Assembly (NCBI GenBank): GCA_030656095.1
Contig: JAUSOU010000146.1
Location: forward strand, 1-36,345
DNA: 36,345 nt
Origin: Thermovirgaceae bacterium
Lineage (GTDB): Bacteria; Synergistota; Synergistia; Synergistales; Thermovirgaceae
Reading direction: 5' to 3'
Position numbers and translations under genes: made by a program. Positions 24,173 through 36,345 of the stretch are shown in pieces (the first letter of the stretch is position 1; the number at the start of each line of letters is the position of its first letter). The notes beneath the pieces are model-generated. The model saw nothing but the letters and a program-made list of their open reading frames with translations. It ran no database searches and was not told the origin of the DNA.

Positions 24173-24196
24173 TAAAAAAGCGACCCCTTGCAGGGG
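24173..24196 (-). terminator. Terminator after SRP RNA
   Basis: CCCC-TGCAA-GGGG on the minus strand, then TCGC and TTTTTT. It partly overlaps the terminal stem of the SRP RNA. Confidence 0.65.
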
Positions 24197-24294
24197 ACCC
24201 AGCGCTCCTGCTGCACCAGAAAGGCCATATACCGCTGCTCCCTTCCGGGCCTGGCGGGGTTTTATGGACTTTCGTCGCACAGGACTGGATCCCC
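24193..24294 (-). ncRNA. ffs: Signal recognition particle 4.5S-type RNA
   Basis: RNA of the protein-targeting particle that binds Ffh. The diagnostic apical domain CAGGCCCGGAAGGGAGCAGC is present in the minus strand (CCGCCAGG-CCCGGAAGG-GAGCAGCGG), and GGGATCCAG at the 5' end pairs with CTGGGTCCC at the 3' end, giving a hairpin of about 102 bases without an Alu domain. It lies just downstream of a tRNA-Ser, a common neighbour. Confidence 0.93.
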
Positions 24295-24314
24295 AGCAAA
24301 AAATCGCCAAAGTT

Positions 24315-24402
24315 TGGCGGAGAAGGAGGGATTCGAACCCACGGGACGTTGCCGCCCAGACGCTCTCCAAGCGCCCGCCTTCGACCACTCGGCCACTTCT
24401 CC
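24315..24402 (-). tRNA. tRNA-Ser (GGA)
   Basis: A class II tRNA of 88 bases including encoded CCA. Acceptor stem GGAGAAG/CTTCTCC; anticodon stem GGCGC/GCGTC enclosing loop TTGGAGA, so anticodon GGA; long variable arm and T-arm GGGTTCGAATCC. It reads UCC/UCU. Confidence 0.96.
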
Positions 24403-24429
24403 ATTAGTCAACACTCAGTATATCAAATA

Positions 24430-24523
24430 TGGCGGAGAGAGTGGGATTTGAACCCACGAGACGGCTCATCACCGCCTAGACGATTTCGAGTCGCCCGCCT
24501 TCGACCAACTCGGCCATCTCTCC
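24430..24523 (-). tRNA. tRNA-Ser (CGA)
   Basis: A class II tRNA of 94 bases with encoded CCA. Acceptor stem GGAGAGA/TCTCTCC; anticodon loop CTCGAAA between GGCGA and TCGTC gives anticodon CGA, reading UCG. Long variable arm with GGCGGTGATGAGCCG. The first 48 bases overlap the 3' end of tadA on the same strand. Confidence 0.96.
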
Positions 24524-34181: not shown

Positions 34182-35693
34182 TCAGCGCGGGTTTTCGGTA
34201 GTTTCGGATTCCATTTCCCTGAGCTGCCTCTTGAGAATCTTGCCTGTGCTGGAAAGCGGCAGTTCCTGGACGATGTCTATTCTTCTGGGAACTTTGTAGT
34301 GGGCCAGATGCTCCTTGGCGAACAGGACCAGTTCCTGCTGCGTCACGTTTACGTGTTCATGCGGAACGACGAAAGCCTTGACCACCTCGCCGCTGATGGC
34401 GGAGGAGATTCCGACGGCCGCGCTCATCTTGACCGATGGGTGTGAGTTCAGCACGGTCTCAACTTCCTGAGGGTAGACGTTGAAACCCCCGACTATTATC
34501 AGGTCCGTCGCCCGGTCCAGGATCGTGATAAAACCGTCTTCGTCCAGTTTCACTATGTCTCCGGTGTCGAGCCAGCCGTCATGGAAACGCTCGGCGGTCA
34601 GATCGGGAGCACGAAAATAACCGGAGGTGACCGAAGGTCCCTTAACCCACAGAACACCTTCCTCTCCGGTCCGGAGAACGTTGCCTTCGATATCCCGGAT
34701 CTGGACTTCGTAGCCGGGAAGCGGCGGCCCTACGGTGCCCAGCTTTCTTGTCTTTTCGGAAGGATTGCAGGATACGACCGGAGAGCTCTCCGTAAGACCA
34801 TATCCTTCGAAGCAGATGACCCCCATCTCCTTGCGGATCCTGCCCTCAAGGGTCGGATCCAGTTTCCCGCCCCCGGTGAGGATATATTTGAGACTGGGGA
34901 AGGAAAGACCCTCCTTGGAAACGGCACCCATCAGAAAAGGGAGCATTGTGGGAACCGCTATCATGATACTTACTTCAGCTTTCTGAAGGGCTTCAAGAGT
35001 CTCCCTGACAGGGATGAACGAGGAGACTACAACCATTGGCAGCCCCCAGCAGAGAGGCAGGACGCCGCATATCGTGAAGCCCAGAGAGTGGAAGTTGGGG
35101 AGAACGTTCAAAAGCACACGGCCGCTCTCGAACCCCTCGATAGTCTGGTACACCTTGAGGGAGTTGTCTATAAGGTTGGCGTGGCTGACCTCCACAGCCT
35201 TGGGTGCGCCTGTGGTTCCCGATGTCGCGAAGATCACGGCGATCCCCTCGTCTTCAGGCTTAGTCATCCTGGCGATGAACATCGGCAGGGGCCCTTCCGG
35301 GGAGGCTATAACTGAAGGTATACCATTTTCCATAAGGACCCCGGCGAGGTTTTCCATCCCATCTCCGAGAACCGCGCCGATCGGATCGATATGTTCAGTT
35401 ATCTGAACGCTTGCGTTGATTCCGCTTCTTGCGTTGAGAGGAGCGATGGCTCCGCCAAGTCGCCATGCGGCCACGGCAAGGCTCCACAGAAGCGGGGAGT
35501 TGGGAAGAAAAACGGCGATGCGGGACCCTGGCCGGAAGCCGCTTTGTCGCAGGGATTCCTCACTCTCCCTGACAAGGGCCATAAATCCGGCTCCGCTCAT
35601 CCAGGAGCCCTTCCACCATACGGCGTGTGTTTCAGGATCCTTTGCAAGACGGCTGGAAATAATTTCATCGAGTCTCGAAAAACCACCCACCAT
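34182..35693 (-). CDS. AMP-dependent acyl-CoA synthetase/ligase
   Basis: ANL-superfamily enzyme that adenylates a carboxylic acid and passes it to CoA, 503 residues. The P-loop-like TSGTTGAPK (157-165), GYGLTE, WLDTGD and the C-terminal catalytic lysine in SSTGKILKR are all present. The length and sequence resemble medium/long-chain fatty-acyl-CoA ligases, but substrate cannot be set. ATG after GAGGGGAAA. It sits between the exopolysaccharide promoter and grdX with gaps on both sides, so probably its own unit. Confidence 0.9.
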   Translation of the reverse strand: MVGGFSRLDEIISSRLAKDPETHAVWWKGSWMSGAGFMALVRESEESLRQSGFRPGSRIAVFLPNSPLLWSLAVAAWRLGGAIAPLNARSGINASVQITEHIDPIGAVLGDGMENLAGVLMENGIPSVIASPEGPLPMFIARMTKPEDEGIAVIFATSGTTGAPKAVEVSHANLIDNSLKVYQTIEGFESGRVLLNVLPNFHSLGFTICGVLPLCWGLPMVVVSSFIPVRETLEALQKAEVSIMIAVPTMLPFLMGAVSKEGLSFPSLKYILTGGGKLDPTLEGRIRKEMGVICFEGYGLTESSPVVSCNPSEKTRKLGTVGPPLPGYEVQIRDIEGNVLRTGEEGVLWVKGPSVTSGYFRAPDLTAERFHDGWLDTGDIVKLDEDGFITILDRATDLIIVGGFNVYPQEVETVLNSHPSVKMSAAVGISSAISGEVVKAFVVPHEHVNVTQQELVLFAKEHLAHYKVPRRIDIVQELPLSSTGKILKRQLREMESETTENPR

Positions 35694-35773: not shown

Positions 35774-36175
35774 TCAGACACCTTGCAGAGCTATCTCCAG
35801 CAGTTGAAGATCCATAAAAGCCAGATCTTCTCCCCGGGGACCTTCTGCAGACAGGAAGACCATCCTGGAGAGGCGATCCTCAGCGCTTTGCACCAGGAGA
35901 AAATCCCTTCCGCTGCTGGACGATTCTTCGCTTTTATGAAGAACCAGCGACCGAAAAGGGTTCTCCATAAGCCGGCCGTTTGGGGGAAGAGGCGAGCTCC
36001 AGAGGACATACCCCTCAACAAGAAATTTTCCGGCCTCTCTTATGACATCAACCGGCGAGCCGTCCACCAACAGGGAGTCCGGATATTTTCCGAAAACGTT
36101 CGGGTTGTTGGTTACGATCAGGAATTTGTCCAAATGATCTCCTTCGTTGCAGGGTTTTAGCAGCAGGAGGTTCAT
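35774..36175 (-). CDS. grdX: GrdX family protein
   Basis: A 133-residue protein that matches GrdX, a small protein encoded with glycine/sarcosine/betaine reductase genes. Recognisable stretches are FLIVTNNPNVFGKY, VDGSPVDVIREAG, and HPL-like SSPLPPNGRLMENPFRSLVL. Its biochemical role is unknown. Start ATG 36175 follows GGGAGGAAGGG; the frame continues upstream into a group II intron but that part is not coding. No other grd genes follow downstream, so the rest of the cluster, if present, must lie beyond the intron or elsewhere. It implies Stickland-type amino-acid reduction in the host. Confidence 0.8.
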   Translation of the reverse strand: MNLLLLKPCNEGDHLDKFLIVTNNPNVFGKYPDSLLVDGSPVDVIREAGKFLVEGYVLWSSPLPPNGRLMENPFRSLVLHKSEESSSSGRDFLLVQSAEDRLSRMVFLSAEGPRGEDLAFMDLQLLEIALQGV

Positions 36176-36204
36176 TATACCCTTCCTCCCGACAGCATTG
36201 CCAC

Positions 36205-36280
36205 ATCGAGTAGGCTGGGGGAATTTCTTCCCCCGGCCTCTCACACCACCGGGCGTACGGTTCCGTACCACGGCGGTTCC
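36205..36280 (-). mobile_element. Group IIC-like intron, 3' end (domains V-VI)
   Basis: On the minus strand 36278-36245 is a 34-base hairpin starting AACCGCCG and ending CGGTGGT, the size and shape of intron domain V, with a CGC triad (G in G-U pairing) as in group IIC introns. It is followed by a second hairpin GGGGGAA-GAAA-TTCCCCC with a nearby A bulge (domain VI) and by CTACTCGAT, a fitting 3' splice end near 36205. The rest of the intron lies outside the window. The 3' exon begins about 30 bases upstream of grdX. Confidence 0.75.
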
Positions 36281-36345
36281 CTAAGCTGATATTCTTCGCT
36301 GCTTACCCAGTTCATCGACCAGACTGTACAATCCCAATTTGTCGA
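36281..36345 (-). CDS. Group II intron reverse transcriptase/maturase, C-terminal end (partial)
   Basis: The frame enters from the right edge and ends at TAG 36283-36281, immediately before intron domain V. Only about 20 residues are visible (ending KQRRISA); they carry no diagnostic motif. The call rests on position: intron-encoded proteins lie in domain IV, just 5' of domain V. Confidence 0.5.
   Translation of the reverse strand, partial: DKLGLYSLVDELGKQRRISA

Follow-up and report, generated by a model that had tools for sequence, protein, structure and literature searches.

Does a mobile intron that settles immediately in front of a gene alter the fate of that gene? The question is raised by the stretch of DNA analysed here (hereafter the window), which is the entire contig C139 (36345 bp) of a draft genome (G000; 169 contigs totaling 1.92 Mb, with a completeness of 89%). 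The contig breaks off at position 36345 within a minus-strand group II intron, and a gene of the grdX family adjoins the intron. Introns of class C begin with GUGCG, carry domains V and VI (D5 and D6) with a bulged A, and end in AU. Two publications describe them as inserting directly behind rho-independent terminators, with little effect on host genes (PMC8919778, PMC4424553). According to the second of these, bacterial copies without an ORF are uncommon and almost always accompanied by related introns, which may supply proteins to them in trans (PMC4424553).

Here we describe the end of the intron in the window, its sister copies, and the corresponding site in a congener (G001) that lacks it, together with copies in a second genome of the same family (G004). 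Our reading, which we hold to be very likely, is that a mobile group IIC-like intron was inserted by reverse splicing between the terminator of grdB and the promoter of grdX. From sequence comparison, the order of the locus would be terminator, intron, promoter, grdX.

The window ends within a group II intron

The presence of an intron at the end of the window is confirmed. Three features describe it.

36205 to 36345, minus strand: 3' part of the intron, up to the contig limit (identical 141 bp at the end of contig C131)
36205 to 36280, minus strand: domains V and VI; the 3' splice end is base 36205, and base 36211 is a bulged A of branch type (RF00029 match and fold)
36281 to 36343, minus strand: probable final 20 codons of the maturase, DKLGLYSLVDELGKQRRISA, and its stop codon, truncated by the contig end (translation and alignment)

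On the minus strand, 36205-36278 is matched by the full length of the Rfam model Intron_gpII (RF00029). The score, 34.2 bits (E 3.1e-5), is under the curated cut-off of 40 bits, and the match is absent at the gathering threshold. The bases 36280-36205 of the same strand fold into a D5-like and a D6-like hairpin of -43.8 kcal/mol (z -5.5), a stability reached by none of 200 shuffles. The bulged A of the D6-like hairpin (36211) lies seven bases before the intron's 3' end at 36205, and the 3' exon begins at base 36204. The window copy thus possesses domains V and VI, a 3' end in AY, and a bulged branch A, as expected of a group II intron, and similar D5 and D6 domains are present in maturase-bearing introns of the same order. 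The final 141 bases also form the end of C131, without a mismatch, and the final 100 occur on contigs C21 (98% identity) and C126 (93%) as well. Fold, family match, and repeat copies agree on a 3' splice end upstream of grdX, where an earlier note, made from the sequence alone, had placed it. The base that follows the splice site is G at grdX and C or T at the remaining 10 of 11 such ends in three genomes, and IBS3 pairing may consequently have been lost at the grdX copy.

Judging from translation and alignment, bases 36343-36281 probably encode the end of the intron's maturase. The tail DKLGLYSLVDELGKQRRISA matches the C-terminus (DRMGLVSLLD) of the annotated ltrA of an Azoarcus plasmid, with one of 300 shuffles scoring equally, and both C-termini sit immediately before D5. 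This was the only one of five maturases tested for which the tail aligned at the C-terminus, and no Pfam family was found for the 20-residue tail. A degenerate-codon scan of the genome contigs for this tail returned six stretches. In one (L104) the match lies inside other genes; L104, L105, L107, and L109 matched no Rfam family at the gathering score; and L106 is apparently the same record as contig C121 of G004. On this last contig (L062, 1-219) lies an intron copy with a maturase ORF that seems to have lost internal parts, short pieces of it standing side by side.

Two other RNA features were observed in the window: a Mo/W cofactor riboswitch (RF01055) at 275-392, with 72.5 bits, and a bacterial small SRP RNA at 24193-24523, beside two minus-strand tRNA genes with long variable arms.

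Sister copies, complete and decayed

Contig C126 of the same genome begins with a complete copy of 641 nt (positions 1-641) without an ORF, which starts with GTGCGCCC (GTGCG) and ends in CTACTCGAT. The Rfam models D1D4-3 and D1D4-1 match it with 121.3 and 63.6 bits, and both also match three of the four maturase-bearing loci scanned in the order (L111, L119, and L120), the fourth (L121) being matched by RF00029 only. The GUGYG 5' end and domains I-IV are accordingly seen in this sister, the grdX copy being cut off by the contig end before these parts. On C21 lies the 3' part of another copy, apparently ORF-less as well. Searching G000, G001, and G004 for the end patterns gave 11 matches for the 5' end and 11 for the 3' end (CTACTCGAT), while the sister intron used as a query found no match in G002, G003, G006, G007, G008, or G009.

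Several copies have unusual surroundings or are strongly reduced. On C131 (8036-8044, L005) the intron follows a permease-like gene in antisense orientation, and the intron end provides the final codons and the stop (ATC GAG TAG) of this 332-residue frame. On G001 contig C62 (4975-5028, L059) a terminator-like hairpin is followed by a remnant of 54 nt, in which the intron's first ~24 nt are joined to its last ~30 nt, by deletion or as an assembly artefact. Two 5' stubs lie in mid-contig after hairpin-like sequence in G000, one of 29 nt (C85:4529-4557; L053 1501-1529) and one of ~20 nt (C2:5244-5263; L132). Stubs without a 3' side would be the opposite of what incomplete reverse transcription is expected to leave.

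The existence of such decayed copies (29 nt on C85, ~20 nt on C2, and 54 nt on G001 C62), together with a contig that ends after 141 bp of intron, raises the possibility that the grdX locus holds a decayed 3' fragment instead of a whole intron. We regard this as unlikely. The break coincides with the end of C131, with 141 identical bp on both contigs, as a longer shared repeat would give, and the maturase-like frame stays open up to the end of C139.

A further possibility concerns the source of mobility. Neither RVT_1 nor GIIM domains were found in the G000 assembly, and GIIM was also absent from G001 and G004 (the RVT_1 search covered G000 only); GIIM is present in nine of 180 genomes of the order. 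Taken at face value, these results might mean that in the genus of G000 and in its near relative G004 the intron family is without a maturase of its own, and that ORF-less or remnant copies reached many terminators with the help of an outside maturase acting in trans or of no maturase at all. There is a small chance that this is so. The lack of maturase domains is explicable by a fragmented assembly in which the copies of a repeated element were collapsed.

An intron-free site and a preference for terminators

Comparison with an intron-free relative, which the earlier note had proposed as a check, was made possible by contig C104 of G001, a member of the same genus. This contig reads grdB, terminator, ATGGCAATGCC...TATAATG, grdX, and acyl-CoA ligase. 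Its grdB matches the glycine reductase selenoprotein B model with 610.6 bits (cut-off 602.2) as well as PF07355, and the hairpin between grdB and grdX (-24.6 kcal/mol, z -5.1) ends in TTTTTT. The window counterpart reads intron-GTGGCAATGCTG...TATAATG, grdX, and then the same kind of ligase.

34182 to 35693, minus strand: AMP-binding acyl-CoA ligase-like gene 3' of grdX (PF00501; counterpart in G001)

Alignment of the two loci puts the insertion point immediately after the run of T at the homologous site, such that the junction falls at the end of the terminator. A grdB-like frame was also recognized by eye in the sequence upstream of grdX in G002, G003, G006, G007, G008, and G009.

The 5' exon of the grdX copy was also sought through the grdB genes of G000 itself, but it did not turn up. 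The closest to that of G001 is on contig C162 (88% identical), with a second copy on C56 (59%). On C162 the grdB stop adjoins an insertion sequence, and the combination of terminator and intron is not found there. This insertion sequence (L095; 1-219 and 13350-14809) contains a long transposase frame, begins at the grdB stop codon, and by eye has the end repeat AGGAGTCTGTCGG inverted at both ends; the two ends of the contig overlap by 64 bp inside the transposase. The interval between grdB and grdX in G000 may hold the insertion sequence as well as the intron.

The sister copies have the same type of neighbor as the empty site. At all seven intron starts whose 5' exon can be read (G000 C23 and C85; G001 C48, C62, C95, and C175; G004 C147), a terminator-type hairpin lies directly ahead of the intron, with T-rich bases in between, and these hairpins, drawn from three genomes, have z values of -3.3 to -8.7 (200 simple shuffles each). 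The count leaves out G001 C22, with no intron sequence after the pattern (z -0.5); G000 C126, which begins at the intron and so lacks a 5' exon; and G000 C2, with one mismatch and a stub of ~20 nt, whose apparent hairpin was judged by eye and not folded. It also leaves out a counter-case, G004 C162 (7430-7500, L061), where an intron 5' end stands without a terminator hairpin (z 0.1). That 5' end abuts an apparent ORF remnant of another copy, and the end is rearranged.

Insertion right behind an intrinsic terminator, a trait of class C, is thus seen through the G001 site and the seven sister starts. Both give good, if indirect, support to two proposals of the earlier note, namely that the intron is IIC-like and that its 5' exon may be the terminator of the upstream gene. 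The G001 terminator ends where the 3' exon begins.

The start of grdX and its candidate promoter

The effect of the insertion on grdX depends on where this gene and its promoter begin. Four features are proposed downstream of the splice site.

35774 to 36133, minus strand: grdX, with TTG as the likely start and the stop codon included (NF038093; G001 frame)
36139 to 36144, minus strand: ribosome-binding site AAGGAG (sequence; same motif in G001)
36174 to 36179, minus strand: proposed -10 hexamer TATAAT, 18 bases from the -35 (invariant in six of six aligned leaders; present in the window and eight of nine relatives)
36198 to 36203, minus strand: TGGCAA, a -35-like hexamer of the candidate grdX promoter, beginning after the first base of the 3' exon (leader alignment)

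Read from the ATG at 36175, the frame has 133 aa and matches the NCBIfam model GrdX (NF038093) with 55.4 bits (cut-off 40), while no Pfam family was found for the protein. The model score above its cut-off and the grdB upstream in the congener identify it as a member of the GrdX family. The ATG at 36175 was rejected as the start. It overlaps the TATAAT; the corresponding frame in G001 reads G-Y-N after a stop codon, without an ATG; and in G007, G008, and G009 the bases after TATAA form no ATG. The NF038093 match begins at residue 19 of the ATG-started protein. A TTG at 36133-36131, preceded by AAGGAG at 36144-36139, is likely the better start in both the window and G001, to judge from these alignments. 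The distance of about 30 bases between splice end and grdX start given in the earlier note fits the ATG, which is 29 nt away, and does not hold for the likely TTG start, at 71 nt.

The motif TGG(C/A)AA-N18-TATAAT is shared by all six aligned leaders (the window, G001, G002, G007, G008, and G009) and, with G005 added, by the window and six of the nine relatives examined. G003 and G006 have the TATAAT without the first hexamer, and G017, from another family, has neither. In the window's 36345 bases the motif occurs once, counting both strands. The -35 hexamer is weak, matching three of six positions of the consensus, and a scan for consensus promoters gave no site by its own rule, the TATAAT at 36174-36179 included. 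In six motif-bearing relatives the 72 bases ahead of and into the motif fold with -26.4 to -36.2 kcal/mol, compared with -15.2 in G006, -15.8 in G003, and -4.9 in G017 (over 55 bases), all values being single folds without shuffles.

This arrangement bears on a further suggestion of the earlier note, that the insertion may separate grdX from its promoter or from the rest of a grd operon unless splicing restores the link. Separation from the promoter is not supported. The promoter-like element lies entirely within the 3' exon, beginning one base past the splice site, and a cut between grdX and its promoter was accordingly rejected. Hairpins already stand between grdB and grdX in the congener and in five further relatives, and the intron therefore adds little separation. 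From the order of these elements we consider it likely that the intron has little or no effect on grdX.

An influence on expression, whether by blocking read-through from grdB or by making grdX dependent on splicing, has a few points in its favor: the intron and grdX share a strand, grdX may also receive read-through, and in G017 grdX stands close behind a grdB-like frame with no strong hairpin or TATAAT, which makes co-transcription plausible in some relatives. It is nevertheless improbable, given the strong hairpin that already divides the genes in G001 and five more relatives and the intact promoter-like element in the 3' exon. An assembly chimera at 36204/36205, with a repeat end joined to grdX, is conceivable in a draft of 169 contigs with contig ends within repeats, yet very improbable, as the junction coincides exactly with the intron end CTACTCGAT, found at 11 places in three genomes, and with the point where the terminator of the homologous locus ends.

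Discussion

The preferred reading, an intron seated between the grdB terminator and the grdX promoter, suggests the following course of events. Reverse splicing would have placed a IIC-like intron right after the rho-independent terminator that trails grdB and right before the grdX promoter, the grdB terminator thus serving as the 5' exon. Transcribed from its own promoter 3' of the intron, grdX would be expressed independently of splicing. The intron would be present in read-through transcripts only, where splicing would rejoin the terminator and the grdX leader. A full maturase copy would reside somewhere in the cell, and its loss from the assembly would be due to the repetition of the element.

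With its intron-free site for comparison, the locus is a clear illustration of how class C introns come to be tolerated. Between a terminator and the promoter that follows there is probably little transcription, and the element can therefore sit ahead of a glycine-reductase-associated gene with no need to splice. The analysis also corrects the likely start of grdX and indicates a promoter-like element conserved among near relatives. Among the best title matches in the literature, none dealt with group II introns of Synergistetes/Synergistota or with such introns at grd genes.

Three known cases invite comparison. Like the ORF-less introns described beside maturase-bearing kin in an excerpt of PMC4424553, the family includes a complete ORF-less copy (C126) and a 3' part of similar appearance (C21). 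It differs from them in that searches of G000, G001, and G004 yielded no GIIM domain, which fragmentation can explain. The ltrA intron of the Azoarcus sp. KH32C plasmid pAZKH (NC_020548.1) is 77.2% identical to the first 349 nt of the C126 copy, with a similar maturase C-terminus, similar D5 and D6 domains, and a hairpin and T run before its GTGCG; it belongs to another phylum, has a full annotated maturase, and lies behind fba. With group IIC introns in general, as portrayed in excerpts of PMC4424553 and PMC8919778, this intron family shares a location behind terminator hairpins, a probably limited effect on host genes, the GUGCG start, D5 and D6 with a bulged A, and the AU end, and nothing of substance differs from those accounts, the slot between terminator and promoter being a particular landing place. 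Insertion behind terminators with limited effect on the host is already established, and this locus is an instance of the ordinary behavior of class C introns.
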